Source of the DNA: an uncultured Bacteroidales bacterium
GTDB taxonomy: Bacteria; Bacteroidota; Bacteroidia; Bacteroidales; Paludibacteraceae
Assembly (NCBI GenBank): GCA_902785605.1
Contig: CACZZL010000001.1
Location: 158,861-222,860 of the forward strand
DNA length: 64,000 nt
Reading direction: 5' to 3'
Position numbers and translations under genes: made by a program. The notes beneath the pieces were generated by a model. The model was not told the origin of the DNA. It worked only from the letters and a program-made list of their open reading frames with translations, and made no database searches. How positions within the stretch are numbered: position 1 is the stretch's first letter; each line of letters starts with the position of its first letter. Positions 3,998 to 63,161 of the stretch are shown one piece after another.

Positions 3998-6900
3998 TTA
4001 TTTGATTCGCACATTGCGTTCCATGGACTGTTTGATGCGTTCGCGCAGTTCACGGGATTGCGTGTCGACTTTCTGATACCAGTGCGGTTTGAAGTCCTGC
4101 GCGAACTTACACTTGGCGAGTTTGATCTGCAGGTCGTCCATCGTACCGCTCACGTTCACGCCCAGGTAGATCGGGCTGAGCACGTTGATATCGTAGTCGA
4201 AGGTCATGTTCGTGTTGTGCCGTCCGCCGAGTGCGACCATGTAGTTATCCATCTGCACGCAGAGCGGGTACACATCGATCTCGTTCTTGTAGATCGTGAT
4301 CTCGGCATTGATGGAGTCGATCTTGTTCTCGGTCTTTTTGTTGAACAGCAGCAACTTACTGATCTTATCGAAGGTCTCGCCGTCCAGTACCACCAGGTCT
4401 TTGGCCGTCAAGGCTGCCGCACCGCGCAGGGTGCTCATCTTCGGTTTGTACTGGCTGTTGGTGTAGGTCTCGGCGGCCAGGTGGAACTCCGCTGCGCCTT
4501 GGAAACTGCTCAGCATCGGCACCATCTCTTCCAAGCCCGGGATCATCGTCAGCAACTCATCTATGTCCACATCGATCATATGGTAGTCCATACCGATATA
4601 CAGGTGATTGCGGCGCGGGGTGCGGTACATAGCCGTCAACTGCAACTTGGCTGCGCGGCATACGAAACCCACCTCGTCCAGGATCAGCGTGCCTTCGTTG
4701 AGGTAGATACCTCCCTTCAGATCCTTGGCGACTTGGTTGAACACGACCACTTCCTGCATATGCGTATGCAGCGCCAGGTTCACATCGGTCGGAACAAGGA
4801 ACGGCTCGGATTCCGTTTTCACGGAATCATTGGTGACGGGTGATTGGTCATTGGTGACAGGTGCCTCTTCTTCGCTACCGCTGTCGGCGCTGAACCATGC
4901 CATGAGCTGATTCGCATCGCAGTGATTGGAGACAACCTCCAGTTCGCCTTCCAGCACCGCTTCGTGTTTGAACCATTTGCCGATATGACGAATGTTACCT
5001 TTGAGGTTGATGTCTGAGTTACCCAACTCAATGCGTGAGTTATCAATGCTCATCTCGCGGTTCGAGTAACTGAACTCAATAGACGGGATATAGACTGTCT
5101 CCGGCAGACGCTCCGGCAGTTCCAGTTCACCTTGCTTAAGGTTGATCTTCAACCGCGGGTTCCACTGCAGCAGCACGTTCTCACCGTTTCGGTTATACCG
5201 TGCACCCACTTCCAGATCCAGTTTCTCGGTCTTCGCTTTCAGTTCCTCACCCATGCGTGCCTGCAGACCGTCGGTGCGCAGGTCCGCTTTGAGTCGCGGA
5301 GCGGATTTGTCTTTGCGTCCGCCGCTCAGGGCTGCTTTCAGTTCGGAGCGTTGGAGGTTGGCTGTTATGTCCTGATAGAACCCGTCCAGCGCGTCACAAC
5401 GCAGTTCGGCTTGCAGCACCGGCATGACGGTCGTGTCCTTGGTGTTGTACTCGGCATACGCTTTCATATCCGGTGCGTCGATCGTACCGCCCATCGAATC
5501 CATCTCCAGTTCAACCATGCGGTCGGACTGCAGGCTCACTGCAGCATACAATACCGGGTCGTTGCTCAGCACGTTTCCGCTCTCCAGGCAGATCACCGAT
5601 TGCTTGAGCGCCGCTTTCAGCGGGGTCGTCATCTCAAAGTCCACTTTCTCGGTCTCCAAGTCGATACGGGCCCAGTTGACCTTGGGTTTGGAGGGTTGGC
5701 TGTTCGGTATCTGCACGCGAGCGTGCGTCTTGGGCAGGTCTGCCATCATGCCGTCCTGCGCGTAATGGATATCCTTGAGGTTCATGTCCGCGCTGATGCG
5801 TCCTTTGTGCAAACGCATCTCGCTCAGGTCGCTCAGACGAATCTTGGCTTGGGCTGTACCCGCTGCCTGACCGCTCAGTCGCATGCCCTTGGGCAGGAAC
5901 GCTTTGAAGTCCGGAATACGGGCATCGATGTCGGCTTGGATATCCAGGAGCATGTCCGATTGGATATCGCTGATGGTGCCTTTGGCTTCCAGACGGCTGT
6001 TCCACAGCTGCGCTTGTGCCTTATGCAAGGTCACAACCGGCATCTGCGTGTCGCTGTACGTACCTTTTGCGGTGGCGTCCAAGGCAATTGAACCTTTCAA
6101 CTTATAGGACGCAATCGACTTGGTGAACCGCTCCGGCACAAGGGCCAGCAGGGTCTCGATGTTCCAGGTGTCGGTTGTCAAGCGCACGTCCATGTCGATG
6201 GAGTCGTGCAGCGTGACTTCGCCTTCAGCGCGCAAGTTCAGATCGTTGACTGCCAGCCGGGCACCGTCCAATGCAAAGTGCATCGAGTCGAGGTTCATCG
6301 CCATCGGGGCAATCAATTCGATATGCAGACTGTCAGCATAAGTCTCGCCTTTGAGTCGGGCATATATGTCTTGTGCGTCCAAGGCGATGAGCATGTCGTC
6401 CCAACTGGCTGCTTTGGCACTCAGGTCGGTTGCACCGATGGATGCCTGAATCGTGTCCTTGTCGTCCACGAACGTGAGGACATCGGCTTGCAGGTGCAGG
6501 CCGTCCACGGTCAACTGATCGAACGGCAGCGAGAAAGCGGTCGTGTCCTCTTCGGTTGTATCCGGTGAGGTGACGAACACGTCACTCAGGTTGGTCGTGC
6601 CGTCCTGTGCGATGTAGAAATGGACCGTTGCCTCTTCCAATGCTGCCTCATAGATATGCAGGTTCTTGTGGTTAATGAACTCCATCACATCGACGGTGGC
6701 GGTCAGGTGCTGCGCACAAACGACGGTGTCGCTCTGTGCCCCCTCCATCGGGTTGATCAGCAGCAACTTGTCGGCACGCAGACCAAAACGGGGGAAAGTG
6801 GAGAAGAAAGTCAACTCCACTTCGCCGATCTCGTGCTCGCAGGTGATGTACTTAGCTGCTGCCTGGCGGGCAATCGGTGTCAGGCGCTCCGGCGTGAAAA

Positions 6901-7000
6901 CGATATAGATCGCTACGCTGGCGGTGATCACGACCGTCAGCACCAGGCCTAACAGGGTCCAGCCTAGGACTTTGAGGGTTGTTTTAACGCCTTTTTTCAT
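3998..7000 (-). CDS. AsmA-like envelope protein
   Basis: A 1000-residue protein with one N-terminal membrane helix (GWTLLGLVLTVVITASVAIY), then FTPERLTPIARQAAAKYI and the GEVELTFFSTFPRFGLRADK block typical of AsmA/TamB-related proteins. These proteins bridge inner and outer membranes and are thought to carry phospholipid. The rest is long beta-rich repetitive sequence. The C-terminus has the conserved AsmA block (GTMDDLQIKLAKCKF). Its ATG overlaps the stop of the upstream lipoprotein gene (ATGA). Near residues 712-724 the protein carries VTNDQSPVTNDSV, encoded by a micro-repeat cluster (4827-4862) that looks inserted into a variable linker. Confidence 0.85.
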   Translation of the reverse strand: MKKGVKTTLKVLGWTLLGLVLTVVITASVAIYIVFTPERLTPIARQAAAKYITCEHEIGEVELTFFSTFPRFGLRADKLLLINPMEGAQSDTVVCAQHLTATVDVMEFINHKNLHIYEAALEEATVHFYIAQDGTTNLSDVFVTSPDTTEEDTTAFSLPFDQLTVDGLHLQADVLTFVDDKDTIQASIGATDLSAKAASWDDMLIALDAQDIYARLKGETYADSLHIELIAPMAMNLDSMHFALDGARLAVNDLNLRAEGEVTLHDSIDMDVRLTTDTWNIETLLALVPERFTKSIASYKLKGSIALDATAKGTYSDTQMPVVTLHKAQAQLWNSRLEAKGTISDIQSDMLLDIQADIDARIPDFKAFLPKGMRLSGQAAGTAQAKIRLSDLSEMRLHKGRISADMNLKDIHYAQDGMMADLPKTHARVQIPNSQPSKPKVNWARIDLETEKVDFEMTTPLKAALKQSVICLESGNVLSNDPVLYAAVSLQSDRMVELEMDSMGGTIDAPDMKAYAEYNTKDTTVMPVLQAELRCDALDGFYQDITANLQRSELKAALSGGRKDKSAPRLKADLRTDGLQARMGEELKAKTEKLDLEVGARYNRNGENVLLQWNPRLKINLKQGELELPERLPETVYIPSIEFSYSNREMSIDNSRIELGNSDINLKGNIRHIGKWFKHEAVLEGELEVVSNHCDANQLMAWFSADSGSEEEAPVTNDQSPVTNDSVKTESEPFLVPTDVNLALHTHMQEVVVFNQVAKDLKGGIYLNEGTLILDEVGFVCRAAKLQLTAMYRTPRRNHLYIGMDYHMIDVDIDELLTMIPGLEEMVPMLSSFQGAAEFHLAAETYTNSQYKPKMSTLRGAAALTAKDLVVLDGETFDKISKLLLFNKKTENKIDSINAEITIYKNEIDVYPLCVQMDNYMVALGGRHNTNMTFDYDINVLSPIYLGVNVSGTMDDLQIKLAKCKFAQDFKPHWYQKVDTQSRELRERIKQSMERNVRIK
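4827..4862 (-). repeat. Micro-repeat cluster (ACCAATGACC family) inside AsmA-like gene
   Basis: On the coding strand, words such as CACCAATGA and CCAATCACC recur with small changes and are translated as VTNDQSPVTND. Reading frame is kept through the cluster. Confidence 0.7.
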
Positions 7001-7452
7001 TTGGTCTCAACAACTTTGGAGAAATAGAACTTATTGCTGGAGCGGTCTTTCTCGTAGTACTCGAGGTCCGTGGAGGTCAGTTTGGTGACCACATACACCT
7101 TGGGTATCTCCGCACCGCCGTTGTCCATGAGATGAATCTCCGTCAGCTTGCCGTTGGATTCGAATTTATACTTGAACCAACCGTTGCCGTAAGGGAGTAG
7201 GTCCTCTTCGAACACGTCCTCTGCCTCGTCCCATTCGCGGCCGTACAGATAACTGGTCTCATCGGATTGCTCGCTCGTGAAACGTACGAAATGTTCCGTG
7301 TTGTTTTCTTGCCACAACGCCTGCAGGCTGCTCAACTGATACGACGGCTCTTTGTCCTTACCGCCTATCATCGAACAACTGCTGAACGCAATTCCCACCA
7401 GCGCTACCAGCGCCAAACTGATTACTGATTTCTGAATGCTGAATGCTTTCAT
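6997..7452 (-). CDS. Small lipoprotein, function unknown
   Basis: A 151-residue protein with signal peptide MKAFSIQKSVISLALVALVG and lipobox FSSC, so it is predicted to be lipid-anchored. The mature part is acidic with Tyr/Trp-rich strands (FTSEQSDETSYLYGREW) and no family I recognise; it resembles small calycin-like Bacteroidales lipoproteins. It lies 2 bp after ileS and overlaps the AsmA-like gene by ATGA, which suggests an envelope role with AsmA. The signal-peptide codons 3-11 fall in a micro-repeat cluster of TTCAG/ATCAG words (7416-7448). Confidence 0.8.
   Translation of the reverse strand: MKAFSIQKSVISLALVALVGIAFSSCSMIGGKDKEPSYQLSSLQALWQENNTEHFVRFTSEQSDETSYLYGREWDEAEDVFEEDLLPYGNGWFKYKFESNGKLTEIHLMDNGGAEIPKVYVVTKLTSTDLEYYEKDRSSNKFYFSKVVETK
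7416..7448 (-). repeat. Micro-repeat cluster (ATTCAG family) in a signal peptide
   Basis: Coding-strand words ATTCAGC, ATTCAGAA, ATCAGTA and ATCAGTT occur in a row and encode SIQKSVIS at the start of the lipoprotein. The same word family occurs at 8528-8556 and 16021-16049. Confidence 0.7.
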
Positions 7453-7454: not shown

Positions 7455-10400
7455 TTATGCTTTTTCAATTTTGATGTTCACGTTATAACCGTCCATCTCG
7501 ACAGCCTCACCTTGTACGTCGGTTGCCAACTGCAATGAAGTAGCCAATACCTGACCGGCGATATACTCGTTGCAATGCAGCACGGCGTTGTGGATCTCTT
7601 TGCGATCTTCGATGCTCACCTTAATGCGGTCGGTGATCTCCAAACCGGAAGACTTACGCAGGTTTTGGATGCGGTTAATGAGCTCACGGGCAATTCCTTC
7701 CTCGATCAGTTCGTCCGTCAATTCGATATCGAGCGCGATCGTAAGAATACCGTTGTTGGCCACAAGCCATCCCGGCATGTCCTCGGTGATGATCTCCACA
7801 TCTTCGGGCACAAGCGTGTAGTCGAGTAGGGTGAACTGTCCGTCAGTTTCCATCTTAGCGATATCGTCTTGACTCATCGCGGTGATAGCCGCAGCCAGCT
7901 CTTTCATCTTACCACCCACTTTCTTACCGAGCACTTTGAACTGCGGTTTGATCTTCTTAACCAGTTTGATCTCACTCTGCTCGGCCGGTACGATGACCAG
8001 TTCCTTGACGTTCACCTCGCTCTTGATGAGGTCGGCTACGTGCAGCAACGCATCGGTCGTCTCTTGGTCGGGGGTCGGAATGACGGCCTTCTGCAGCGGT
8101 TGACGCACGTTCTTCTCCGCACGCTTACGCAGGCTGAGGATCGTACTCGTTGCCTGTTGAGCCAAATACATCTGACGCTCCAGGTTGAGGTCAATGAGAC
8201 TTTCGTCTGCCTTGGGCCAATTGCTCAAGTGGACGGTCTCTCCCACTAAGTCGCGATAGAGACGGTCGGCATAGAACGGAGCGTTCGGAGCCATGAGTTG
8301 GGCAACAGTCTTGAGGCAGGTATAGAGCGTCTCGTAGGCTGCCTGTTTGTCGGCATTCATCTCACCGCCCCAGAAACGTTTACGGTTGAGACGCACGTAC
8401 CAGTTACTGAGGTCATCCTGCACGAAGTCCGAGATCGCACGACCGGCTTTGGTCGGCTCGTAGGCCTCGTAGGCTTCGGTCACCTCTTTGACGAGCGAAT
8501 TGAGCTTTGAGAGAATCCAACGGTCGATTTCTGAATACTGACCACTGAATGCTGACGGCTCCCAACCATCCACGTTGGCGTAGAGCGCGAAGAACCCGTA
8601 GGTGTTATAGAGGGTGCCGAAGAACTTACGGCGTACCTCGTCCACGCCTTCGGGGTCGAATTTCAGGTTCTCCCACGGGCTGGAGTTAGTCAGCATGTAC
8701 CAGCGTACGGCATCGGCGCCATAGGTGTCGAGCGCACCGAACGGATCGACGGCATTACCCAGACGCTTGGACATCTTGTTACCGTTCTTATCGAGCACGA
8801 GGCCGTTGGAGATGACGTTCTTGTACGCCACCGTGCCTTCGATCATCGTATGGATCGCGTGGAGTGTGAAGAACCAACCGCGGGTCTGGTCTACTCCTTC
8901 GGAGATGAAATCGGCCGTGCGCGGTGCATCGGCGTGCTCGAAGGGGTAGTGGTTTTGTGCGTACGGCATGGCTCCTGAATCGAACCAAACGTCGATCAGG
9001 TCCAACTCACGTTTCATCGGCTTGCCCGACGGCGAGACGAGAACGATGTTATCCACATACGGACGGTGCAGGTCGATCACCGACGGGTCGTAGTTGGCTT
9101 TGGAGTAGTCGCCTACCACATGCTTCGGCCAAGGGTTCGCCTTCATGAAGCCCGCCTTGACGGATTTATCGATCTCTGCGAACAACTCTGCGATCGAACC
9201 GATGCAGATCTCTTCCTGTCCGTCTTCGGTACGCCAGATCGGCAGCGGAGTACCCCAGTAACGGCTGCGGCTGAGGTTCCAATCGTTGAGGTTGTTGAGC
9301 CATTGGCCGAAACGACCGGTTCCCGTCGATTCGGGTTGCCAGTTAATGGTCTTATTGAGCGCGATCATGTCCTCGCGTGCTTTGGTCGATTGGATGAACC
9401 AGCTGTCGAGCGGGTAGTAGAGTACAGGTTTGTCGGTACGCCAGCAGTGCGGATAGGAGTGTACATGCTTCTCGGTCTTGAGCAGACGACCGTCACTTTT
9501 CATTTCCAGACAGAGATGCAGATCAAGTGATTCGGCTTTGGCTGCTGCCACCTCGTCGTACTTACCGTCCACGGTGAACTGCGGGTCATAGGCGTTCTTC
9601 ACCCACCGGCCGGCATACTTACCGTATAGTTCGGTGTTGACGTTCGCAGCTACCCATTCGGGATCCAGGTCGTCGATGTTCCAGTACTTACCGGTGAAAT
9701 CAACCATCGGGCGCGGGCCGTAGTTCTTGGTCTGCATGTACAGACCCGGTACACCGGCTGCGTCTCCCACTTTCTTATCGTCCGCACCGAAAGTCGGGGC
9801 GATATGCACAATACCTGTTCCATCTTCGGTCGTCACGTAGTCACCCGGGATGACACGGTATGCACCCGGTCCCGGGTTCACCCACGGGAAGAGGGGTTCG
9901 TACTCGAGTCCTACGAGGTCCGTACCTTTGTAGCGGGCTACGATGTTGGCGTTCTCGAAGTATGCGGACAAACGTGCCTCGGCCAGAATGATATGTTCAC
10001 CACTCTCCAGTTCGATCTCGACGTAGTCGATCTTCGGTCCTACGCACAGCGCGGTGTTCGAAGGCAAGGTCCACGGAGTCGTCGTCCATGCGATGATATA
10101 AGTATTCTCGCCAATTTTTAATTTTTCATTTTTAATTTTTAATTTAAACTTAGCGGTGCAGGTCAGATCCTTCACATCGCGGTAACAACCCGGTTGGTTG
10201 AGCTCGTGCGAACTCAGACCCGTGCCGGCAGCCGGCGAGTAGGGTTGAATGGTGTAACCCTTATAGAGGTAACCTTTCTTATAGAGCTCTTTGAGCAGGT
10301 ACCACAGGGTCTCGATATACTTGTTGTCGTACGTGATATACGGGTCGTCGAGGTCCACCCAATAACCCATCTGCTTGGTGAGGTTGGTCCACTCGCGCGT

Positions 10401-10803: not shown

Positions 10804-10840
10804 CCTTTGTACATTGTACATTGTCTCTTTGTACATTTAT
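10804..10840. repeat. Intergenic micro-repeat cluster (TTGTACA family)
   Basis: TTGTACATTGTACATTG and a further TTTGTACATT fill the 52-bp gap between the C69 gene and ileS and include the C69 stop codon. The same word family is inside aroB (53938-53994). Confidence 0.75.
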
Positions 10841-12543: not shown

Positions 12544-14108
12544 AATAGTCTTGGGTTTTGAAGTTCGTTGATTCGTTTGTCTCGTTTTTTCAATGCGATG
12601 TCGTAGGCCTGGCGGTAGTACTTGAAGAAATGCTTCCAATCGGCTTTCTTGGCGACTGCTTCGGCTTCCTTACGTGCCCGCGCTTTGTCTTCTTTCGACA
12701 GACGGTCAAAGCGCAGCAGGTCCTCGGCGATGTGGTCTGCCACCTCGTCGAAGTTAGAGTCATTACGCTTAATGACGATCACACCGTACTGATCTTTCTG
12801 TTGCGCTGCCCATACACCGAAACCGGTCAACGAGGTCGTGATGGTCGGTACATGGAACGCACAGGACTCCAGCGGTGTGTATCCCCATGGTTCGTAGTAG
12901 GACGGGAACACGCTCACGTCCATTCCGATAAGCAGGTCGTAATAGGTCTTGCCGAACAGCGGGTCATGACCGTCCAGGTAATAGGGAACGAACACGGCGC
13001 TCACCCGGCCTTTGCGGGACGGGGCGCGGTCGAGGTAAGGGATCATGACGAACGCAATCACTTCGCGCTCCAGTTGCTGGCTGTGGTAGATCTTCTGTGC
13101 CAACTTATCCAGCGCGGCAGCGAACACGTCGATACCTTTGTTCTTCCACTCCAGCCGGCCGGAGATGCACACGAACAGGGCGTTCTCGGGTACGACACCG
13201 CCGAGCTGTTCGCCGGCCACCTTACGCAGTACTTCGCGTGCTTCGGCACGTTTGAGATCGAAGTCTTTGCCTTTGGGCACGTAGGTCGGTTCGAATCCGT
13301 TCGGGGTGACGATATCAACAGGTTTGTCGAGCAGCTGCTTGCACTCGCGTGCTGTGATGTCACTCACGGTCGTGAAGCAGTCGGCATGCTGCGCAGCCTG
13401 TTTTTCTACGGAGTGCTTGCTGACCATGTTCAGTTCGTACGCCATCTGGTCCCCGTTGTACCCTTCGAAATAGTCGTACAGCGGTTTGCCGTTGCCGGCT
13501 ATCGAACGACCGATACCGGTGGCATGGGTGGTGAACAGGGTCGCGATCTGCGGACAGTGGTCTTGCAGGTAGAAGATCGAGAACGCCGTCTGCCATTCGT
13601 TGGCATGCATGCAGAACTGCGGAGCACGGGATTTTTTAATTTTTAATTTTTCATTTTTCATTATCCAGTGGTACAGACTCTCCATCACCATGCCGGCTGC
13701 GTAGCCGAACAGGCAGGACTCGTCGTAGTCGCCGTAGGCGGCATGACTCTGCACTTGGAACTTATCCCATGCCCAGGCGTAGATCTCGTCCTTGTGCGCC
13801 CACAGCGCATCGAACTTAAGCAGGATAGCAATCGGTTCTCCCGGCACCATCCAACGACCGATTCGGACAGGGATGTCTTCTTTCAACTTTCCACTTTCAA
13901 CTTTCCACTTTTTGAGAAGATCGCGATCTTCTCGAAAATAGATATCACTATGGTCTCCGAAGTCGGGACCGAAGAAGAACACTTTGTCGGGGTGTTCAGC
14001 TTGCATGGAAGCGGCACGGGTGCTCAGTACGGCATAGATACCGCCTACGCGGTTGCACACTTCCCATGAGGTTTCAAATATATAATCCGGTGTATTCATT
14101 TTCATCAT
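12540..14108 (-). CDS. Glycogen/starch synthase, GT3-like
   Basis: A 522-residue glycosyltransferase that should extend alpha-1,4-glucan. The N-terminus MNTPDYIFETSWEVCNRVGG holds the nucleotide-sugar-binding VGGIY motif of glycogen synthases. The FFGPDFGDH block, ANEWQTAFSIFYLQ, and the C-terminal PSYYEPWGYTPLESCAFHVP are those of the Bacteroidales GT3-like synthase. Two micro-repeat clusters are in frame: KKWKVESGKLKEDIPVRIGR near residue 70 and MKNEKLKIKKSRAP near residue 155. Start choice among MMKMN is uncertain by three codons because the whole 5' leader is a GATGAAA repeat. It is coupled to the C69 gene by ATGA. Confidence 0.93.
   Translation of the reverse strand: MMKMNTPDYIFETSWEVCNRVGGIYAVLSTRAASMQAEHPDKVFFFGPDFGDHSDIYFREDRDLLKKWKVESGKLKEDIPVRIGRWMVPGEPIAILLKFDALWAHKDEIYAWAWDKFQVQSHAAYGDYDESCLFGYAAGMVMESLYHWIMKNEKLKIKKSRAPQFCMHANEWQTAFSIFYLQDHCPQIATLFTTHATGIGRSIAGNGKPLYDYFEGYNGDQMAYELNMVSKHSVEKQAAQHADCFTTVSDITARECKQLLDKPVDIVTPNGFEPTYVPKGKDFDLKRAEAREVLRKVAGEQLGGVVPENALFVCISGRLEWKNKGIDVFAAALDKLAQKIYHSQQLEREVIAFVMIPYLDRAPSRKGRVSAVFVPYYLDGHDPLFGKTYYDLLIGMDVSVFPSYYEPWGYTPLESCAFHVPTITTSLTGFGVWAAQQKDQYGVIVIKRNDSNFDEVADHIAEDLLRFDRLSKEDKARARKEAEAVAKKADWKHFFKYYRQAYDIALKKRDKRINELQNPRLL
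13632..13663 (-). repeat. Micro-repeat cluster (AATGAAAA/AATTAAAA family) inside glycogen synthase
   Basis: Coding strand AATGAAAAATGAAAAATTAA continues in 8-bp steps and gives KNEKLKIKK. It is the same family as in ileS (10113-10146). Confidence 0.8.
13880..13913 (-). repeat. Micro-repeat cluster (AAGTTGAAAGTGGAA family) inside glycogen synthase
   Basis: Coding-strand words GTGGAAAGTTGAAA recur and encode WKVESGKLKE. The same words are in the SDR epimerase gene (58730-58762). Confidence 0.8.
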
Positions 14109-14134
14109 TCATCTTTCATCTTTCATCTTTCATC
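14101..14134 (-). repeat. Micro-repeat cluster (GATGAAA family) at the glycogen synthase start
   Basis: Coding strand is GATGAAAGATGAAAGATGAA running into ATGATGAAAATG. It spans the stop of the PKD lipoprotein and the start of glycogen synthase, so several ATGs compete as initiators. Confidence 0.75.
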
Positions 14135-15137
14135 TCACCTCATTATCCAACGCCAACTTGGTAGCGCCGGTCATAGCATTGACACGGGTGGGGGTAGAAA
14201 CGAACTTGTTGTTGTCCGAACCGATGAACGGCATGTACCATATACCCTCGTCGTTTGCCCAGTAGATACGGTTGTCAAAATAGGTGTCGAGCACCATGGC
14301 CCAGCACGGGCGCTCGTCGATGAGCACGATGTTCGCGCCGTCGATGTTGGCTACCCACAGACCGTCCGCACGGAAGTATATCTTGCGGTTCGCGATATGG
14401 AAGCCCTCAATGGTGGGGAACAGCTCCTGCAGTTCAGACAGGTAAAAATCATATCCGTTGTAGGTCTGCATGGTGTCCTGTTCGGCATCGAGCAAGTCCT
14501 TGGCACTGTCGTCCAACTGCGCCTCCTCGGCCCGTTCGCCGAAGATACGCTGACGGTAATAGCCCATCGGGGAACGGATCAGCAGCGAGTTCGTCTCGCG
14601 GTCCAGGATAGGGACTGTCTTGGTGATGACGGTCGTCTCGTTGTTCATCGTCAGGCGCAGCGTCACTTCCGCTTCGCCCTCTTCGGTGAAGTAGCCCGTG
14701 ACCGAACTGCCGGTTGTGGTGACGACCGAATCCGGGAACTCCCATTCGTACGTGATGGTGTAGTTGTACGGGTTATACACATTCGCTTCGAACGTGTAGT
14801 CCTCGTAGATGAAGAACACGCTGTCCACGCAGGTGAAGGTCGGGATGGTGTCGTACACCGTGATATCTGCGGTCTTGGTGAGGGATTTTTTCTTGTCTAC
14901 CTTGAGGGTTACGATGTAGTTACCCGGTTTCTTATACACATGTGAAGGGTTCTTCAGCGTGGACGTCACGCCGTCGCCGAAGGTCCACTCCCATTCCTCA
15001 CCGGCGGAACTCAGGTTAGAGAACGCGACCGATTGTCCGGCACGCGGTTCGGTGGGGCTGTACGTGAAGTTCACATCGACCTTCTTACAAGCGATCGCTG
15101 CGAAGCAGAGTGTCAATAATAGAATTGTTTTTTTCAT
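14130..15137 (-). CDS. PKD-domain lipoprotein
   Basis: A 335-residue exported protein. MKKTILLLTLCFAAIACKK is a lipoprotein signal with lipobox AIAC. Residues ~22-95 form a PKD domain with the hallmark GEEWEWTFGDGVTSTLKNPS and YVVTL-like strand (NYIVTLKVDKK). A second PKD-like stretch with YEWEFPDSVVTTTG follows. The C-terminal half (LDTYFDNRIYWANDEGIWYM) resembles beta-propeller NHL/LDL-receptor YWTD strands, suggesting a surface binding protein. The 5' end overlaps miaA; the start used is the ATG five codons inside a longer open frame, because it begins the signal peptide. Confidence 0.85.
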   Translation of the reverse strand: MKKTILLLTLCFAAIACKKVDVNFTYSPTEPRAGQSVAFSNLSSAGEEWEWTFGDGVTSTLKNPSHVYKKPGNYIVTLKVDKKKSLTKTADITVYDTIPTFTCVDSVFFIYEDYTFEANVYNPYNYTITYEWEFPDSVVTTTGSSVTGYFTEEGEAEVTLRLTMNNETTVITKTVPILDRETNSLLIRSPMGYYRQRIFGERAEEAQLDDSAKDLLDAEQDTMQTYNGYDFYLSELQELFPTIEGFHIANRKIYFRADGLWVANIDGANIVLIDERPCWAMVLDTYFDNRIYWANDEGIWYMPFIGSDNNKFVSTPTRVNAMTGATKLALDNEVR

Positions 15138-20359: not shown

Positions 20360-20360
20360 A

Positions 20361-52294: not shown

Positions 52295-52351
52295 TTGTTT
52301 CTGTTTAGATTTATCCCTTCATTCTTTCACTCGTTCGTTCCTCATCCTTAT

Positions 52352-52513: not shown

Positions 52514-52550
52514 GATATTTTGTGTTTTTTATGTTATTATTCTATTTTTG
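52373..52550 (-). repeat. 178-bp direct repeat, copy B
   Basis: Second copy of the giant leader plus signal region, with four regular GGTCCATTCTC 11-mers where copy A has a degenerate second unit. Confidence 0.9.
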
Positions 52551-52556
52551 GTTGTC

Positions 52557-52580
52557 GTCTAATTGACTAGCGGACTAGTT
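52557..52580. repeat. Micro-repeat cluster (GACTAGCGGACTAG family), left
   Basis: TTGACTAGCGGACTAGTTAT lies just 3' of the four-helix-bundle gene on the minus strand. A matching cluster lies at its 5' side. Confidence 0.6.
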
Positions 52581-52583
52581 ATT

Positions 52584-53445: not shown

Positions 53446-54513
53446 ATGATGTGCAATGAGATACAGCGTCCGTTGGCGGAGATTTGTAGCCGCTACCCGC
53501 AGGACCAGATTGTGGTCGTGCTGGATCGTCGTGTGGCGTACGAGACGGCGTATCCGACGCTGCGGCTGGAGGTGAGCGAGGAACACAAGGACCTGAGCAC
53601 CCTCACGCAGATATGGGACTTTTTCTTTGCGCACCACCTCACTCGCAGCGGGCTGGTGATCTGTATCGGCGGCGGCGTGCTGACGGACATGGCGGGGCTG
53701 GCTGCAGCTATGTACAAACGCGGGGTGGACTACGTCAACATCCCGACGACCCTGCTGTCCATGGTGGACGCATCGTCAGGCGGTAAGACCGCCATCAATT
53801 ACCACGGTCTGAAGAACAGCATCGGCGTGTTCGCCGAGCCGGTCGAGACGCTCATCTGCCCGAACTGGCTGCACACTCTGCCGGCCGAGCAGTTGCTCAG
53901 CGGCTATGCCGAGATGCTCAAGACAGGACTTATAGAAGATAATGTACAAAGTGACAATGTACAATGTACAAAGGACAATGTACAAGGTACAAAGGAGTCG
54001 TTGTGGAACCGTTTACTCAACTACGACCTGGAGGCGCTGGACGAACAATCGTTGGCACCGCTGATCGCGGACTGCGTAGCGGTCAAGACGCAGATCGTGA
54101 GCTCCGACCCTCACGAGCAGGGAGCACGCAAGGCGCTTAACTTCGGTCACACCTTCGGGCACGCGCTTGAAGAGGTTACGGGTTATGGGTTACGGGTTAC
54201 GGGAACCATGCCTCATGGCTATGCCGTGCTCTACGGCATGATCGCCGAACTGTACCTGAGTGTGACGCGCTTAGGCTGTCCGCGCGAGCCGCTCCAGCAC
54301 CTCACGCAACTCATGCTCCACTACTACGGCAAGCCGCAGTGTAAGTGCTCCGACCGCGAGCAACTCATCGCGCTCATGCAGCAGGACAAAAAGAACGAGC
54401 GTGCAGCCGAAATCAACTGCACACTCATCCGATCCATCGGGGAGCCGGTTATCAACCAGGTCATCACCCCCGATGAGGCTGCTGAAGCCTTCGATTATTT
54501 ATTCTCGCTATAA
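53446..54513 (+). CDS. aroB: 3-dehydroquinate synthase
   Basis: A 355-residue shikimate-pathway enzyme converting DAHP to 3-dehydroquinate with NAD+ and a divalent metal. Motifs are ICIGGGVLTDMAGLAAAMYK (NAD site), YVNIPTTLLSMVDASSGGKT, AEMLKTGLI, and metal ligands in RKALNFGHTFGHALEEVTGY. Two micro-repeat clusters are in frame: DNVQSDNVQCTKDNVQGTKE (53938-53994) right after the metal-site Lys-Thr helix, and GYGLRVTGTMPHG (54174-54203) just after the HTFGHALE motif. Both are loops on the rim, so activity is probably kept. It overlaps phoH by 19 bp tail to tail. Confidence 0.95.
   Translation: MMCNEIQRPLAEICSRYPQDQIVVVLDRRVAYETAYPTLRLEVSEEHKDLSTLTQIWDFFFAHHLTRSGLVICIGGGVLTDMAGLAAAMYKRGVDYVNIPTTLLSMVDASSGGKTAINYHGLKNSIGVFAEPVETLICPNWLHTLPAEQLLSGYAEMLKTGLIEDNVQSDNVQCTKDNVQGTKESLWNRLLNYDLEALDEQSLAPLIADCVAVKTQIVSSDPHEQGARKALNFGHTFGHALEEVTGYGLRVTGTMPHGYAVLYGMIAELYLSVTRLGCPREPLQHLTQLMLHYYGKPQCKCSDREQLIALMQQDKKNERAAEINCTLIRSIGEPVINQVITPDEAAEAFDYLFSL
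53938..53994 (+). repeat. Micro-repeat cluster (GACAATGTACAAAG family) inside aroB
   Basis: AATGTACAAAGTGACAATGT, ACAATGTACAAAGGACAATG and TACAAGGTACAAAGG repeat over 57 bp and encode NVQSDNVQCTKDNVQGTK. It is the longest coding cluster in a housekeeping gene here. Confidence 0.9.
54174..54203 (+). repeat. Micro-repeat cluster (GGTTATGGGTTACGG family) inside aroB
   Basis: GGTTACGGGTTATGGGTTAC then GGGTTACGGG encode GYGLRVTG, next to the HTFGHALE metal motif. Confidence 0.8.
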
Positions 54514-56004: not shown

Positions 56005-57599
56005 TGCAGGTCGAGTTCGTTCTGCTCATATTATCGTTGCTGTTCTTCGTCAGCATCATTGCGGACAAGATCGGTTATAAGTTCGGTGTGCCTGCCCTGC
56101 TGCTGTTTCTGGTAGTAGGTATGTTGTTCGGACCGGATGGTATCGGTGCGCTGCTGGGCGGAAGCGGATTGGAGATCAACACCAAGAACGCCGAAGCGCT
56201 CAGTACAGTCGCGATGTGTATCATCCTGTTCACCGGAGGTATGGACACCAAGCTCAGCGATGTGAAGGCGGTGCTGCTGCCCGGTGTGACCTTAGCGACC
56301 GTGGGCGTGCTGCTCACCTGTGTCATCACGGGAATCATCATCTATTTCATCTTCGGCTGGTTCAGCGCGCTGACTACCGTCTCGATCTGGATGGCGCTGC
56401 TCATTGCGGCAACCCTGTCCAGTACCGACAGTGCGAGTGTGTTCTCGATCATGCGCAACAACGGCATCGGTATCAAGCACGAACTGAGGCAGTTGTTAGA
56501 GTTGGAGTCGGGTGCCAATGACCCGATGGCGTACGTGCTGACTACGACCCTCATCGGCGTCGTACTGGCGGGTAGTAAGCATGTGGAGGCACTGCCAATC
56601 GTGCAGGTCATCGTCGTCCAACTGGTCATGGGCACCGTGCTCGGATTGGCGTTAGGCAAAGGACTCGTGCTGCTCATGCGCCGCGTCAAACTGGCCAACG
56701 AAGCGCTGTACCCCATCATGGTCCTCACGGCCTGTATCTTCATCTTCGCCAGCACGTATTACCTGCAAGGTAACACTTATCTCGCCGTCTATGTCGGCGG
56801 TCTGATCATCGGAAACAGTAAGTTCACCCGCAAACGGCAGACCAAGTCGTTCTTCAACGGTCTGACTTGGCTCAGTCAGTTGTCCATGTTCCTCATGCTC
56901 GGTCTGATGGTTCGCCCGTCGGAGTTCCTGCGTCTGGACGTGTGGCTGCCGTGTCTTATCATCAGTGTGGTGATGATCGGTATCTCCCGTCCGATGTCCG
57001 TGCTGCTGTGTATGTGGCCGTTCAAACGATGGCGTATGCGCGACCGCCTGATGCTCAGTTGGGTCGGACTCAAAGGGGCTGTGCCCGTCATCTTCGCCGT
57101 CATGTGTAAGGCTGAAGGGGTGCCGAATGCCGATATCATCTTCAATGTGGTGTTCCTCTGCACCATCGTCTCCCTGCTCACGCAGGGCACGACACTCACC
57201 CTCATGGCGCGTAAGCTGAACCTGGCGGTACCGCCCGAGGAGGAGAAGGTCCTCGAGCACTTTGATCTGGACCTGCCGGAGGAGATCCAATCCTCGGCAC
57301 GGGAGGTGGAGGTGACGGAGCAGATGCTCGAACGCGGTAACACCCCGCGCGAACTGGCTATTCCGCCACACACCCTGATCGTCATGGTCCGCCGGGGCGA
57401 GGACTTCTTTATTCCTACCGGTTCGAGCGAACTGAAGGAAGGAGACCAACTGCTCGTCATCTCCGACCATGACGCGAATGCCGCTTACCAGCACCTGACC
57501 GACGAGGCCGAAGAGGAGGCTCAATGGCGCGCCGACATGCGCAACAAAGCCAAGAACAGATGGCTCCGCGCTACCCGTTGGATGCACAAGAAGGGGTGA
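56004..57599 (+). CDS. Potassium/proton antiporter (CPA1, CvrA/NhaP2-like)
   Basis: A 531-residue membrane antiporter. About 12-13 helices make up the CPA domain, with LEINTKNAEALSTVAMCIIL and the ion-site STDSASVFSIMRNNGI then LELESGANDPMAYVLTT, typical of NhaP2/CvrA. The last ~130 residues are cytosolic, with a TrkA-C-like domain (LVMVRRGEDFFIPTGSSELK, EGDQLLVISD). It is expected to export K+ (or Na+) against H+. It overlaps the thioredoxin gene by one base. The GTGATGGG-rich cluster right after its stop is a micro-repeat. Confidence 0.92.
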   Translation: MQVEFVLLILSLLFFVSIIADKIGYKFGVPALLLFLVVGMLFGPDGIGALLGGSGLEINTKNAEALSTVAMCIILFTGGMDTKLSDVKAVLLPGVTLATVGVLLTCVITGIIIYFIFGWFSALTTVSIWMALLIAATLSSTDSASVFSIMRNNGIGIKHELRQLLELESGANDPMAYVLTTTLIGVVLAGSKHVEALPIVQVIVVQLVMGTVLGLALGKGLVLLMRRVKLANEALYPIMVLTACIFIFASTYYLQGNTYLAVYVGGLIIGNSKFTRKRQTKSFFNGLTWLSQLSMFLMLGLMVRPSEFLRLDVWLPCLIISVVMIGISRPMSVLLCMWPFKRWRMRDRLMLSWVGLKGAVPVIFAVMCKAEGVPNADIIFNVVFLCTIVSLLTQGTTLTLMARKLNLAVPPEEEKVLEHFDLDLPEEIQSSAREVEVTEQMLERGNTPRELAIPPHTLIVMVRRGEDFFIPTGSSELKEGDQLLVISDHDANAAYQHLTDEAEEEAQWRADMRNKAKNRWLRATRWMHKKG

Positions 57600-57676
57600 C
57601 GGGCTATGGGTTACCGGTTATGGGTTACCGGTTACGGGATAAAATTAAATCAAAAATCATAAATCATAAATCATAA
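57600..57676. repeat. Two adjoining micro-repeat clusters (GGTTATGGGTTACCGG and AAATCATA)
   Basis: GGGCTATGGGTTACCGGTTA, TGGGTTACCGGTTACGGG, then AAATCATAAATCATAAATCA leading into ATGAAAACAG. The stop of the antiporter and the start of the next gene bound the whole gap, and the start codon is the end of an AAATCATAAATG unit. No other feature is visible. Confidence 0.9.
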
Positions 57677-59251
57677 ATGAAAACAGTCGTTTTCCTAACC
57701 GGTGCGACAGGCACCATGGGTTATGCGGGTATGCAGGAGATCCTGCGCTACCCCGACCAATACGAACTGCGTATTCTTGCTCGTCCGAGCAAAAAGAATA
57801 AAGAGCTCCTGGCTCCTCTAACCGCTAAGCACTCACCCCTAACCGTTATTTGGGGCGACCTCACCAACTACGAGGACGTGCTCAAAGGTGTGACGGGTGC
57901 TGATATCGTGCTGCATGTGGGCGGCATGGTGTCCCCGCAAGCGGACTACCGTCCCAAAGCGACGCTGCGCACCAACATCACCGCGGCGAATAACATCACC
58001 AAGGCCGTGCTCGCACAACCCGAGGACAAGCAACCCAAAGTGGTCTATATCGGTTCGGTAGCCCAGATGGGTGACCGCCGTGAACCGCTGCATATGGGTC
58101 GTGCCGGCGATCCGATCTGCGTGTCCGCGTACGACCACTACGGTCTGACTAAAGCGCTCGCAGAACGCATCATCACCGACTCGGGCATCAAGACCTGGGT
58201 ATCTCTTCGTCAGTCGGGTATTCTCTATCCGGCGATCCTCAAGAACTACGACCCGATCATGTTCCATGTGCCGATCCGCGGCGTGCTGGAGTGGGCGACG
58301 GTCGAAGACAGCGGACGACTGCTTGAGCGTGTCTGCCGTCCTGATGTGCCGGCTAAATTCTGGAACAACTACTACAACATCGGTTCCGGCAAGGAGTACC
58401 GACTCTCCAACTACGAGTTCGAGTGCCTGCTGCTCGACGCCATCGGCTGTCCCAAACCCGAACAGATCTTCAACGCCAACTGGTTCACGACCCGCAATTT
58501 CCACGGCATGTGGTATATCGACGGGGATAAGTTAGAGGACATGCTCCATTTCCGTGCGAACGTGCCGGTGAAGGCGTATTTTGCGCAAATGGCCAAAGCC
58601 GACTCGCTGCCTTGGGGCATCAAGTTCGCCTCCAAGACCCATATCGCCAAACTGTTCCCGCACTGTGTGAAAGCGGCGATGTGGTTCATGGCCAACAGCA
58701 AAGAGCACGGTACACAATGGTGGATTAAGCAAGTTGAAAGTGGAAAGTTGAAAGTTGAAAGGGACAAAGCTGCCAAACGCATCGCTGCTTACTACGGTTC
58801 GCTGGAGGCCTATAAAGCCATTCCGGATTGGAAGCATATGGATCTCAGCCATAACAGCGAGACGCCGGTGCTGCTGGATCACGGATACGATGAGAGCAAG
58901 GATGTGGATCAACTCACCGATGCCGAACTGAACAAAGCTGCGGCTTTCCGCGGCGGTAAGTACCTGGGCAACGATATGTGGCAGTGTGCGCAAGGACACA
59001 CGTTCAAAGCATCTCGTCGTCTGATATTACTCGGAGGACACTGGTGTCCGGATTGCTTCCCATTCCCTTATGACGAAGAGACGATCAAAAATCAGAAATC
59101 AGAAATCATAAATCATAAATCTTCGATTCCTTGGGCTTGGGACCAGGAAGCGAAGCGGAATCCCTTCTTCGCACAACTCTGGGCACCGCTCCACGATGCA
59201 AGCGAAGACAACGTATATGGTCCTGAAGTGTTTGAAGGCTGGGAGAAGTAA
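57677..59251 (+). CDS. NAD(P)-dependent SDR epimerase-family protein
   Basis: A 524-residue extended short-chain dehydrogenase. VVFLTGATGTMGYAGMQEIL is the GxxGxxG nucleotide site, YDHYGLTKALAERI supplies the YxxxK active pair, and LRQSGILYP follows. The last ~180 residues are an added domain (FRGGKYLGNDMWQCAQGHTF, GGHWCPDCFPFPYDEET, with CxxC-like zinc ligands). Product unknown. Three micro-repeat clusters sit in frame: APLTAKHSPLT near residue 50, QVESGKLKVERDK near residue 355, and KNQKSEIINHKSS near residue 475. Its start codon is itself part of a repeat. Confidence 0.88.
   Translation: MKTVVFLTGATGTMGYAGMQEILRYPDQYELRILARPSKKNKELLAPLTAKHSPLTVIWGDLTNYEDVLKGVTGADIVLHVGGMVSPQADYRPKATLRTNITAANNITKAVLAQPEDKQPKVVYIGSVAQMGDRREPLHMGRAGDPICVSAYDHYGLTKALAERIITDSGIKTWVSLRQSGILYPAILKNYDPIMFHVPIRGVLEWATVEDSGRLLERVCRPDVPAKFWNNYYNIGSGKEYRLSNYEFECLLLDAIGCPKPEQIFNANWFTTRNFHGMWYIDGDKLEDMLHFRANVPVKAYFAQMAKADSLPWGIKFASKTHIAKLFPHCVKAAMWFMANSKEHGTQWWIKQVESGKLKVERDKAAKRIAAYYGSLEAYKAIPDWKHMDLSHNSETPVLLDHGYDESKDVDQLTDAELNKAAAFRGGKYLGNDMWQCAQGHTFKASRRLILLGGHWCPDCFPFPYDEETIKNQKSEIINHKSSIPWAWDQEAKRNPFFAQLWAPLHDASEDNVYGPEVFEGWEK
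57817..57848 (+). repeat. Micro-repeat cluster (CTAACCGCTAAGCACTCACC family) inside the epimerase gene
   Basis: CTCCTCTAACCGCTAAGCAC then TCACCCCTAACCG encode APLTAKHSPLT ahead of the conserved WGDLTN segment. Confidence 0.6.
58730..58762 (+). repeat. Micro-repeat cluster (AAGTTGAAAGTGG family) inside the epimerase gene
   Basis: AAGTTGAAAGTGGAAAGTTG then AAAGTTGAAAGG encode QVESGKLKVER. It is the same family as in glycogen synthase. Confidence 0.85.
59086..59121 (+). repeat. Micro-repeat cluster (AAATCAGAAATCATA family) inside the epimerase gene
   Basis: AAAAATCAGAAATCAGAAAT then CATAAATCATAAATC encode KNQKSEIINHKS. The same words are between genes at 57646-57676. Confidence 0.85.
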
Positions 59252-59391
59252 ACTAATTGACGATTGGACGATTGACGAGGTACAATTGATTGACGATTGA
59301 AAATAATTGACGATTGTCAGCAGCGTAAATCGTAAATATAACCAAATCGTACCTAAATCGTAAATCGTAAATCTGTAAATCGTAAATTGTT
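59252..59391. repeat. 140-bp intergenic array of two micro-repeat families
   Basis: First half repeats ATTGACGATTGGACGATTG, second half AATCGTAAATCGTAAATC with AAATCTGTAAATCG. It fills nearly all the gap between the epimerase gene and the helicase gene, and no promoter or terminator is recognised in it. Confidence 0.9.
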
Positions 59392-59394: not shown

Positions 59395-60708
59395 ATGTTT
59401 TTTGACGAATTAGCATTATCGGATGAGGTGTTGGATGCATTGTGGGACATGCATTTCGATGAGTGTACCCCGGTGCAGGAGAAGACGATACCGGTGATCT
59501 TGGAGGGCCACGATGTGATCTCGTGCGCGCAGACAGGCACCGGTAAGACGGCGGCGTATATACTGCCGCTGCTCACCAACCTGGCGTTCGATGATCATGA
59601 CCCCGATAAACTGAACGCCATCATCATGGCTCCGACGCGCGAACTGGCGCAGCAGATCGACCAGCAGATGGAGGGATTCGGCTACTACGTGCCGTTCTCG
59701 TCCGTCGCTATCTACGGCGGTAAGGACAACGGAGCCTGGGGCACGCAGGTTACCGGACTGCAACGCGGTGCGGACATCGTCATCGCGACCCCGGGACGAC
59801 TGCTCAGCCAGATGAACATCTACGACATCGATTTCTCCGGCGTCAAGTATTTTATACTGGACGAAGCGGACCGAATGCTCGATATGGGCTTCTACGACGA
59901 TATCATGACGATCGTGCGTAAGTTGCCCAAGGACCGTCAGACCCTCCTTTTCTCGGCTACCATGCCGCCTAAGATTCGCCAATTGGCACGAACGATATTG
60001 CACGACCCGGTGGAGGTCCAGATCGCGGTCTCCCGTCCGCCCGAGAGCATCAAACAGATGCACGAGTTCGTTGATGAGGGTAAGAAAGTGGAAGCTGTGT
60101 TGGCGACACTAAATAAGGCGAAAGGCGAAAGGTTAGAGGCGAAAGAGGCGAAAGGCGAAGGGACGAATGGGCTAAAGAAGGTCATTGTTTTTGCCGGCAA
60201 GAAGCAGCGGGTGAAGGACCTGACGCGTACGTTACGTTCCTTAAACATTGACGCGCGCGCGATGCATTCGGACCTGGAGCAGAACGAACGGGACCAAGTG
60301 ATGCTGGATTTTCGGAATGGTAAGATAGGGGTGCTGGTGGCGACCGATGTCGTGTCGCGCGGCATCGATGTGACCGATGTGCCGCTCGTCATCAATTACG
60401 ATGTGCCGCATGATCCCGAGGACTACGTGCACCGCATCGGCCGAACCGCCCGGGCAGAGAACAGCGGAGAAGCGATGACACTCGTGTCACCGGACGATAT
60501 GCATTATTGGAAAAAAATCGAGAGATTTTTAACTTTAGCCTCTAACCCTTCGCCTTTAGCCTCTAAAGGTGACGAATCCTCCACTCGTTCGGGTAAAGGT
60601 TATTCAGGCGGTTCCCGACATTCTTCGCGAAACCGAGGGGGACACCCTCATAGGTCAAAAGGACAAGGCCGAGGGGGACACCGGCGAGCATCAGCGCCTC
60701 GGTCCTAA
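59395..60708 (+). CDS. DEAD-box RNA helicase (RhlE/DeaD-like) with overprinted C-terminal tail
   Basis: A 437-residue ATP-dependent RNA helicase. Motifs are QEKTIPVILEGHDVI (Q), AQTGTGKT (I), PTRELAQQ (Ia), DEADRMLDMGF (II), SATMPP (III), VATDVVSRGIDV, and HRIGRTARAENSG (VI). One micro-repeat cluster lies in the linker between RecA domains (KGERLEAKEAKGEGTNGLKK). A second (LASNPSPLASKG) begins a ~57-residue basic tail, SGKGYSGGSRHSSRNRGGHP and on, that overlaps rsmF antisense by 146 bp. The tail is RG/SR-rich as in RhlE, but its codons are the antisense of conserved rsmF sequence. Confidence 0.92.
   Translation: MFFDELALSDEVLDALWDMHFDECTPVQEKTIPVILEGHDVISCAQTGTGKTAAYILPLLTNLAFDDHDPDKLNAIIMAPTRELAQQIDQQMEGFGYYVPFSSVAIYGGKDNGAWGTQVTGLQRGADIVIATPGRLLSQMNIYDIDFSGVKYFILDEADRMLDMGFYDDIMTIVRKLPKDRQTLLFSATMPPKIRQLARTILHDPVEVQIAVSRPPESIKQMHEFVDEGKKVEAVLATLNKAKGERLEAKEAKGEGTNGLKKVIVFAGKKQRVKDLTRTLRSLNIDARAMHSDLEQNERDQVMLDFRNGKIGVLVATDVVSRGIDVTDVPLVINYDVPHDPEDYVHRIGRTARAENSGEAMTLVSPDDMHYWKKIERFLTLASNPSPLASKGDESSTRSGKGYSGGSRHSSRNRGGHPHRSKGQGRGGHRRASAPRS
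60113..60178 (+). repeat. Micro-repeat cluster (GGCGAAAGGTTAGAGGCGAAA family) inside the helicase gene
   Basis: AAGGCGAAAGGCGAAAGGTT, AGAGGCGAAAGAGGCGAAAG, GCGAAGGGACGAATGGGC. It encodes KAKGERLEAKEAKGEGTNGL between motifs III and IV. Confidence 0.9.
60533..60570 (+). repeat. Micro-repeat cluster (TTTAGCCTCTAACCC family) at the helicase tail and rsmF stop
   Basis: CTTTAGCCTCTAACCCTTCG then CCTTTAGCCTCTAAAGG encode LASNPSPLASKG in the helicase. On the opposite strand the same bases supply the TAG that ends rsmF. Confidence 0.85.
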
Positions 60709-62562: not shown

Positions 62563-62568
62563 TTGTTT

Positions 62569-62598: not shown

Positions 62599-62600
62599 CC

Positions 62601-63093: not shown

Positions 63094-63099
63094 GGTGTA

Positions 63100-63161
63100 A
63101 TTTACGATTTACGATTTACGATGTACGATTGATGTACGATTTAATTTATTTACGATTTATT
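63100..63161. repeat. Micro-repeat array (TTTACGATTTACGA family)
   Basis: TTTACGATTTACGATTTACG, ATGTACGATTGATGTACG, then ATTTACGATTTA. It fills the gap between the DUF5675 gene and the small membrane-protein gene and includes the stop codon of the latter. This is the AAATCGTAAATC family of 59252-59391. Confidence 0.9.

Follow-up and report, generated by a model that had tools for sequence, protein, structure and literature searches.

How do dozens of different heptamer arrays come to lie in frame within the core genes of one bacterium? The question is raised by a stretch of 64,000 nucleotides (nt), which we call the window, from contig CACZZL010000001.1 (positions 158,861–222,860) of an uncultured member of the Paludibacteraceae. 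It lies on contig 1 of a metagenome-assembled genome (MAG) of 2.08 Mb, which has 28 contigs and is 83.5% complete. A preliminary description, made from the letters of the window only, saw clusters of micro-repeats between and inside genes, always in frame, and proposed an active process which writes such words into the genome, with selection keeping those in tolerated loops.

Our preferred answer, which we hold tentatively and rate somewhat short of an even chance, is that the arrays are very short tandem-repeat elements of many families, specific to the lineage, dispersed by some copying process and filtered by frame. Each element would have about four head-to-tail units of a 7-nt word (less often 8, 9 or 11 nt), roughly 30–45 nt. 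Copies from a lineage-specific vocabulary would be written into tolerant sequence, that is spacers, signal peptides, linkers and core-enzyme loops, where they would either lengthen the target or replace prior sequence. Selection would purge the copies which break frame or fold; older ones would decay through point mutation or give way to another word. The likeliest writing step would be short-patch copying from an array elsewhere in the genome, by ectopic template switching or conversion, and 7-nt replication slippage would make and homogenise the units. The account is built on the recurrence of arrays in the same loops, their sharp replacement, their number of about four units and the dispersal of one aperiodic composite, with its frame preference and patchy amplification. 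From these we infer by which route copying occurs, which loci serve as donors, what slippage contributes and any enzyme involved.

We will start with the arrays themselves. They were detected with Tandem Repeats Finder (TRF) and with our own run detector, which compares base i with base i+p; both recover the clusters. At score 10 or more the window has 27 clusters with periods 7, 8, 9, 11, 12, 14 and 21, in agreement with the about 30 first claimed; 20 order-2 shuffles of the window give 0–2 each. At score 14 it has 15 period-7 segments, and five shuffles have none. No cluster was found at score 12 in 50 kb of E. coli K-12 (periods 5–12 and 14). Some hits are weak and may be no more than ordinary sequence: two of period 12 (16117, 21641) and a few short ones (8457, 12495). 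Across 80 named contigs, about 1 Mb in all, there are 168 segments per Mb with period 7, 39 with period 8, 30 with period 11 and 11 with period 9. Periods 4, 5, 6, 10, 12 and 13 have 0–5, and periods 14–24 have 1–75, partly multiples or mixtures; the shuffled control has none at any period. The called genes of three genomes contain 112 arrays at score 10, against a mean of 0.7 after codon shuffling.

The number of units is about four whatever the period: the medians are 4.43 (period 7, n=414), 4.25 (8, n=62), 3.67 (9, n=23) and 3.91 (11, n=64), a few arrays being counted twice as some loci overlap (for example L076 with L218; L-numbers denote loci from relatives). Counting whole units at score 10, genes have four in 60 arrays, three in 18 and five in 14; in spacers these figures are 19, 17 and 5. 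Since array lengths spread over 28–36 nt, a rule that every family consists of a five-block element with exact ends is unsupported.

The wider sample of the window's genome (G000) consists of stretches of about 0.5 Mb, a quarter of the genome, partly picked through hits to two arrays. In 458 kb of it, 94 of 143 clusters are best described by period 7 and 31 more by 14 or 21: the unit is not free between 7 and 12 bp, as had been supposed, and classes of 8, 9 and 11 nt do exist. Sixty-six of these clusters are within called genes, 32 at gene edges and 45 intergenic; as genes make up 88% of the sequence, spacers are richer in clusters per base. The same 458 kb hold 115 period-7 arrays with 49 words. 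A vocabulary is common across sites, 222 period-7 arrays having 82 canonical words, 42 of which occur once. Most period-9 arrays read CCTAGG followed by 3 nt, a palindromic core is seen by eye in several of period 8, and hardly any period-11 word recurs at a second site (32 words in 34 arrays). The same word families are found in unrelated genes and on both strands, and coding arrays lie within open frames, all as first described. CRISPR is rejected, in agreement with that description: the units stand head to tail, with no unique spacers. An assembly error is also rejected, as the arrays keep frame and occur in aggregate across the 80 named contigs. Two of three arrays are identical to the letter between two MAG contigs which are 99.6% identical, one of which has masked stretches.

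The evidence for dispersal comes mainly from one family, the TGTAC composite of 33 nt, ATGTACAAAGTGACAATGTACAATGTACAAAGG. Its second unit has 8 nt, so it is not a plain heptamer run. With the array of aroB as query, the whole genome gives 40 further matches, 26 of which end at query positions 49–52, though the query repeat extends to about 72. At 28 or more identities in 33 there are 31 distinct copies in the 0.5 Mb sampled; mean identity is 0.90 between copies and 0.27 between their flanks. At 28 or more in 34 there are 32 places: 25 in same-sense coding frame 0, one in frame 1, two antisense and four non-coding. The frame-0 peptide is xVQSDNVQCTKx, and a second frame is also open. A looser cut of 24 gives 42 places; 32 of the copies are same-sense coding, and 28 of these use frame 0. 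Frame 0 is also that of 13 of 14 same-sense coding copies in stretches of four other congeners. Amplification is patchy. There are at least 23 matches in G000, 22 in G015 and 17 each in G009, G018 and G021; two more genomes have 9 and 8. The nearest relative, G003, has one, seven other congeners have 1–5 and ten congeners none; 16 genomes of other families have one match in all. In a scan of C-terminal linkers no site out of eight has an array with score 12 or more; four of them bear the TGTAC composite.

The AATTA array has 40 further matches genome-wide, 28 of which span query positions 26/27 to 57–59, and the copies sampled have unrelated flanks. Array ends against random flanks are seen for the TGTAC family, and by eye only for some AATTA and GGTTACG copies. 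Aperiodic 24-mers are common to 18 of 7503 array pairs in G000, 3 of 1485 in G014 and 0 of 1275 in G003; between genomes they are common to 2 of 6273 pairs (G000–G003), 0 of 6765 (G000–G014) and 0 of 2805 (G003–G014). A common unit order is found in 16 pairs against 5.0 in unit-order shuffles (0/200 shuffles), and within genes in 7 against 1.6 (1/200). GGCTAA-type arrays were left out of both tests, owing to the choice of stretches by array hits. The early statement that the arrays are not due to ordinary slippage is demonstrated for the 33-nt composite family only; elsewhere local 7-nt expansion is possible, as indicated by one aroB pair (L230/L237) and by the unit order outside genes.

The array sites of the window are the following:
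4827–4863, minus strand: 21-nt composite array within an AsmA/TamB-like gene (3998–7000)
7417–7447, minus strand: heptamer array ACTGATT/GCTGAAT, near the start of an open reading frame (ORF) of 151 amino acids (aa)
10113–10145, minus strand: 33-nt AATTA array in ileS, peptide KLKIKNEKLKI
10804–10837, minus strand: TGTAC element, non-coding copy upstream of ileS
13633–13662, minus strand: AAAAATT/AAAAATG array, glycogen synthase loop aa 140–170
13880–13911, minus strand: AAAGTTG/AAAGTGG array, glycogen synthase loop aa 58–86
14100–14135, minus strand: AAAGATG array, start of glycogen synthase
15453–15482, minus strand: GGCTAAA/GGCTAAT/GGCGAGA array, miaA site 2
15612–15641, minus strand: GGCTAAA/GGCTAAT/GGCGAAG array, miaA site 1, +3 aa
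16018–16048, strand unassigned: TCAGTGT heptamer array, intergenic
24257–24323, plus strand: GGCTAAA array with 21-nt super-unit, n-region of the PotC fusion signal peptide
24342–24371, plus strand: TTCGCCT array, hydrophobic core of the PotC fusion signal peptide, LSPFALRLSP
24481–24529, plus strand: array of the 9-bp class (CCTAGG + 3 nt), CCTAGGNNN, encoding LGSLETLGTLGDLG
29859–29893, plus strand: GGTTATC heptamer array, start of ORF 29844–31664
31500–31529, plus strand: degenerate GGCGAAA-type copy (24/30) in ORF 29844–31664
51122–51158, minus strand: array of the 11-bp class, GAATGGACCGA, N-terminus of a 3342-aa ORF
52433–52479, minus strand: the 11-bp array again, in a truncated duplicate of the 5' segment
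53941–53974, plus strand: TGTAC element, aroB loop 1, peptide NVQSDNVQCTK, with further units on to 53996
54174–54203, plus strand: GGTTACG array of 30 nt, aroB loop 2
57594–57678, plus strand: GGTTACC then AAATCAT arrays, in the spacer before the SDR (short-chain dehydrogenase/reductase) gene, ending at its ATG
58731–58761, plus strand: AAAGTTG array within the SDR gene
59084–59121, plus strand: AAATCAG/AAATCAT array within the SDR gene
59354–59373, plus strand: AAATCGT array, before the DEAD helicase gene
60115–60154, plus strand: GGCGAAA array within the DEAD helicase gene
60533–60566, minus strand: GGCTAAA-type 21-nt composite at the overlap of the helicase and an RsmF-like gene
63100–63141, minus strand: AAATCGT array, intergenic

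Pfam and NCBIfam support the identity of ileS, isopentenyl pyrophosphate (IPP) transferase (miaA), glycogen synthase, the SDR-type NAD-binding protein and the DEAD helicase. The aroB call has an NCBIfam score of 292.8, slightly below the cut-off of 305, and the score of the PotC-type permease is also below its NCBIfam cut-off. With these identities the genes named at the outset do hold arrays in frame. A peculiarity of the 3342-aa ORF is that its 5' leader and first ~50 codons (MKKFTNFNFGDSRMDREWTE..., with the 11-bp array) are duplicated, at 50890–51260 and 52211–52581 on the minus strand. The duplicate lies upstream of a YhcG/DUF1016 nuclease gene, is truncated and ends at a stop; its 11-bp array is perfect, that of the 3342-aa gene imperfect.

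The same loops were compared in congeners for four core genes: ileS (23 congeners among 30 loci), aroB (all 30 loci, taken from 55 genomes with a match), miaA (21 of 30 fetched loci) and glycogen synthase (20 of 30). In ileS, the loop at alignment column 403 has 17 aa and no array in four species; four others have AAAAATT, CCAATCG or AAAGTCG arrays. Its four loops have arrays with score 11 or more in 4, 8, 4 and 1 species, and at column 998 the units are 7, 9 and 11 nt long among congeners. At column 1264 a YQLSTVNYQL-like peptide is common to several congeners, with codon drift, so the array there is old and inherited. Between L003 (CTTTCAA) and L007 (CTTTCGA) all units of the array at this column show one and the same base difference, as if they had been homogenised or written together. 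Loop 1 of aroB has 22–24 aa in 20 of the 30 congeners; it reaches 30, 31 and 41 aa in three species with strong arrays (GACCAAC, GACAATG and AATGTAC words), and 28–36 aa, with weaker or no repeats, in seven more. L237 has a GACCAA where L230 has four GACCAAC units and 21 nt more. Loop 2 has arrays in nine congeners, with six different words; the array of the window's genome is also present in G003.

In miaA, site 2 has 22 aa in 18 of 21 congeners, one of which (L304) has an AGTCAGA array without change in length. It is longer in the window's genome (28 aa, GGCTAAA-type), in L303 (31 aa, AGCCAAG) and in L300 (26 aa). Site 1 has 27 aa in 18, and 30 aa with an array common to the window's genome and G003. 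Glycogen synthase, at score 9, has arrays in five species with five words at site 1, where six array-free species have 21 aa, and in eight species with six words at site 2, where two array-free species have 19 aa. From these lengths and words it is apparent that an array, always in frame but with differing words, may lengthen the loop of one species and take the place of existing sequence in another. Clean insertions, for which a check in these four genes had been proposed, are only part of the picture: congeners lack the array or have another word in the same loop, but at some sites (ileS column 1264, miaA in L304) the sequence is replaced without change in length. The preliminary description would have taken as contrary evidence relatives with the same peptide and codon drift; these are found at one ileS site, and the arrays of miaA site 1 and aroB loop 2 are common to the window's genome and G003, but on the whole the comparison of the four genes speaks for that description.

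Turnover is fast. In 15 pairs of genomes with 88–97% identity, 104 of 117 array sites could be aligned (8 had lost their flanks and 5 had no homology; one site may count from both sides). Of these, 45 are conserved, 14 are diverged arrays, 24 stand opposite another array, 18 opposite unrelated non-array sequence, two are diverged without array and one is absent. In the eight pairs at 94.8–96.7%, where 4 of 57 sites were dropped, 29 of the other 53 are conserved, 7 have diverged and at 17 the array is replaced or absent. Over the nearest 100 bp the flanks have an identity of 0.94 at replaced sites and 0.92–0.96 at conserved ones, with boundaries set by local alignment, which favours the nearest bases; at 100–300 bp it is 0.86–0.90 against 0.90–0.92 (ungapped counts). 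The length difference is a multiple of three at 26 of 36 replaced sites. An anchor-based recount in 18 pairs gave 91 events of 10–250 nt. An array is at or near 43 of them: 38 are replacements and five are clean insertions or deletions.

Two other features were observed in these comparisons. Near position 3977 of L220/L221, a 40-nt segment between two heptamer runs is present in one genome and missing in the other (net 39 nt, in frame), which suggests a deletion between arrays. A GC-rich inverted repeat of the CCCCGACCCTCCC...GGGAGGGG type is found at the sort of site where sister genomes have arrays (L042 at ~5080–5120, L098 at ~6690, L213 at ~15990).

A further setting of the arrays is the signal peptide of the PotC fusion. 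A secreted extension of ~200 aa with its own signal peptide precedes the PotC permease domain in many relatives (window 24247–25671; L031–L110); in L101–L110 the match begins only near residue 190. The closest named relatives of the protein are Paludibacteraceae or Bacteroidales MAGs, mostly from rumen or gut. Arrays had been reported inside potC; they are in the gene, but the first two lie in the signal peptide of the N-terminal extension, outside the permease domain. In the window's genome and 68 relatives, 52 of 69 such signal peptides carry an array at score 9, with 34 different words. By eye, basic n-regions (KVKGERLKVKG, KSKVESRKT) are combined variously with hydrophobic cores (LILYSLFLTP, VICHLSLVICL, LGILGILG, FNFQFSIC, YRYIGIS). 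A 162-nt stretch of this type has at least 18–54 matches in every one of six genomes; some of these matches involve only its AAAGTCG array. Signal-peptide n-regions also contain a module around AGACCGCTTCGCT (L041 3709–3870, L043 ~11538, L062, L094), which is not a heptamer array and is found at several places per genome.

Arrays were also counted beyond the genus. The density of period-7 arrays per 100 kb is 19.9 in the 458 kb of G000, which are partly hit-chosen stretches (the window alone has 15 in 64 kb), 7.0 in G003 and 7.6 in G014. Sixteen other families of the order have one such array in about 327 kb around ileS-like hits. Exact AAAGTTG in three copies is present in 7 of 148 other genomes of the order, from scattered families; the reversed pattern is no control, being the same repeat in another phase. 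A phylum-wide pattern found in 0 of 296 genomes is uninformative, as it is absent from G000 too. Array activity is therefore strong in the genus and patchy elsewhere, which fits the scattered heptamer repeats published, Paludibacter included. In the open-access literature we found no report of in-frame heptamer arrays in core genes of Bacteroidales.

Which process is responsible? Ordinary 7-nt replication slippage from local seeds, at a high rate in this genus and under frame selection, with common words due to composition and coding tolerance, is unlikely to be the whole answer, though it is a serious competitor. In many bacteria no class of long repeats is commoner than heptamers, and the literature suggests a polymerase contact of 7 nt (PMC4679880, PMC4692102). 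The aroB pair L237/L230 looks like one unit grown to four, a seed plus three copies (+21 or +33 nt) would give the four-unit mode of genes (60 with four against 18 with three; in spacers 19 against 17), and a common unit order outside genes is not significant. However, single 7-nt steps would shift the frame of core genes, only five of the 43 array events are clean insertions or deletions, and the TGTAC composite has random flanks at its 31 places. The words show no clear enrichment as single copies in orthologous loops which lack arrays (0.361 against 0.310, a weak test on 23 words), and local seeds are rejected on this test as a general source. Local slippage by itself accounts for the 7-nt pitch and for some sites, but not for the dispersed composite. 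True transposition of selfish elements by an undefined enzyme, in the manner of Rickettsia palindromic elements or REPINs, could account for sharp ends against random flanks, for the use of both strands, for in-frame copies in unrelated genes and for lineage-specific amplification. Nevertheless direct repeats of 2–8 nt show no excess around the TGTAC copies (31 copies of one family; 3 nt in one copy, 4 nt or more in none), these copies have no strong flank motif, and six family consensuses fold no better than shuffles (hairpin z −0.94 to 1.42). The first impression that no transposon could be named is borne out by flanks and folding, and dozens of unrelated words would each need to be mobilised; we consider transposition decidedly improbable. 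Functional sites for regulation, uptake or phase variation, kept by selection or biased uptake, are hardly credible: some arrays do adjoin start codons, as has been described for TAACTGA repeats, and replacement without length change resembles uptake-sequence drive, but the words are many and unrelated, they are placed in enzyme loops, and between relatives they are swapped for other words or for none.

Several observations weigh against our preferred reading of dispersed, copied elements. No donor–recipient pair was caught in the act, and the densities and copy counts of the sampled G000 stretches are not those of random samples. At least five TGTAC copies of G000 lie at a similar GIE..KVIRDG linker and may be paralogous. 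The limits of the AATTA matches are set by the query itself, and this composite may be partly a convergence in genes, as a plain AAAAATT run carries stops. Within G003 none of the 1275 array pairs has a composite in common, and outside genes the unit order is not above shuffles (2 against 1.26, 75/200). Some arrays, such as aroB L237/L230, look like local expansions. Finally, 48 of the 91 events have no array within 20 nt: 43 are replacements and five clean insertions or deletions. Wholesale replacement of tolerant segments is therefore general and not special to arrays, which are a large share of the filling. The active writing first proposed, with selection in tolerated loops, is partly supported, by recurrent in-frame gain and fast turnover, but not by replacement as such. 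This takes weight from copying, and also from a bolder version of it, a dedicated heritable DNA-writing activity which would re-write micro-repeats of about four units from a species-specific vocabulary into any tolerant segment, continually re-authoring signal peptides and enzyme loops; we think that activity quite unlikely. It adds weight to an exchange of alleles, in which strains or species recombine and thereby swap old, diverse alleles of tolerant segments, an array being one kind of content. Segments with and without arrays are replaced alike, signal-peptide types of the PotC fusion are by eye common to non-sister species, sisters being different (L034/L056/L073 against L055/L054/L076), and flanks more than 100 bp away are somewhat less alike at replaced sites than at conserved ones. 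Within 100 bp, however, flank identity does not differ in this way (0.94 against 0.92–0.96), and exchange moves alleles but makes no arrays and leaves copies at unlinked places unexplained. Long-tract recombination is rejected as sole explanation, and we regard allele exchange in general as improbable.

In the decades since heptamer repeats were first noted in bacteria, no mechanism has been demonstrated for them. The genus studied here is a natural experiment, with many array sites, species pairs at 92–97% identity, frame-constrained events in core genes and an element family which one species has amplified and its nearest relative almost lacks. Together these allow a direct test of how 7-nt repeats originate. 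The genus also shows one way in which core proteins undergo wholesale change of their loops, linkers and signal peptides within a short time, and it suggests that odd low-complexity peptides in such proteins can be insertions of this type. A DNA-writing activity, if true, would represent a novel way for protein loops to innovate, different from both slippage and transposition.

Among known systems, the short tandemly repeated repetitive (STRR) sequences of cyanobacteria belong to the class of heptanucleotide repeats. The relevant parts of two papers (PMC4679880, PMC4692102) describe this class as tandem 7-nt units in few to many copies, in scattered lineages and variable between relatives: TAACTGA repeats are found in Beggiatoaceae, Cyanobacteria and five Bacteroidetes including Paludibacter, GGGAATC in Xanthomonas. 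Our genome is similar, as it also has tandem 7-nt units far above chance. However, the published repeats, as those parts present them, are mainly intergenic with one or few words; here there are dozens of words with about four units, many in frame in core genes, and one aperiodic composite or more is scattered over the genome. One or few words in mostly intergenic positions, the trait of long simple sequence repeats (LSSR) and STRR, is not what we find, with 49 words in 115 arrays. As to stepwise change of copy number by slippage, the unit number is narrow (median 4.43 at period 7) and 38 of 43 array events between close pairs are replacements. Rickettsia palindromic elements and their counterparts in Wolbachia and Methanocaldococcus are described, in the part of PMC2996958 which concerns them, as short repeats in frame in unrelated housekeeping genes, in unstructured segments. 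Here too copies of one element are found in frame in unrelated genes, but the arrays have no hairpin, are tandem, form many word families and show no target signature. The Rickettsia elements are also longer than our arrays. Very small dispersed repeats are a further point of likeness, both with REPINs and with the small dispersed repeats of cyanobacteria, on which Elhai et al. reportedly wrote in 2008. REPINs are palindromic and tied to RAYT (REP-associated tyrosine) transposases; their pair of REP (repetitive extragenic palindromic) sequences is not present in our arrays. The cyanobacterial repeats are very small and thought to be mobile, according to a mention in PMC3116915. The spaced-repeat layout of CRISPR is also lacking, and so is, in 31 copies, the target duplication of transposable elements. 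As some defining features of each class were looked for and are not found, the arrays are a variant between heptanucleotide repeats and in-frame dispersed micro-elements, and a member of neither.

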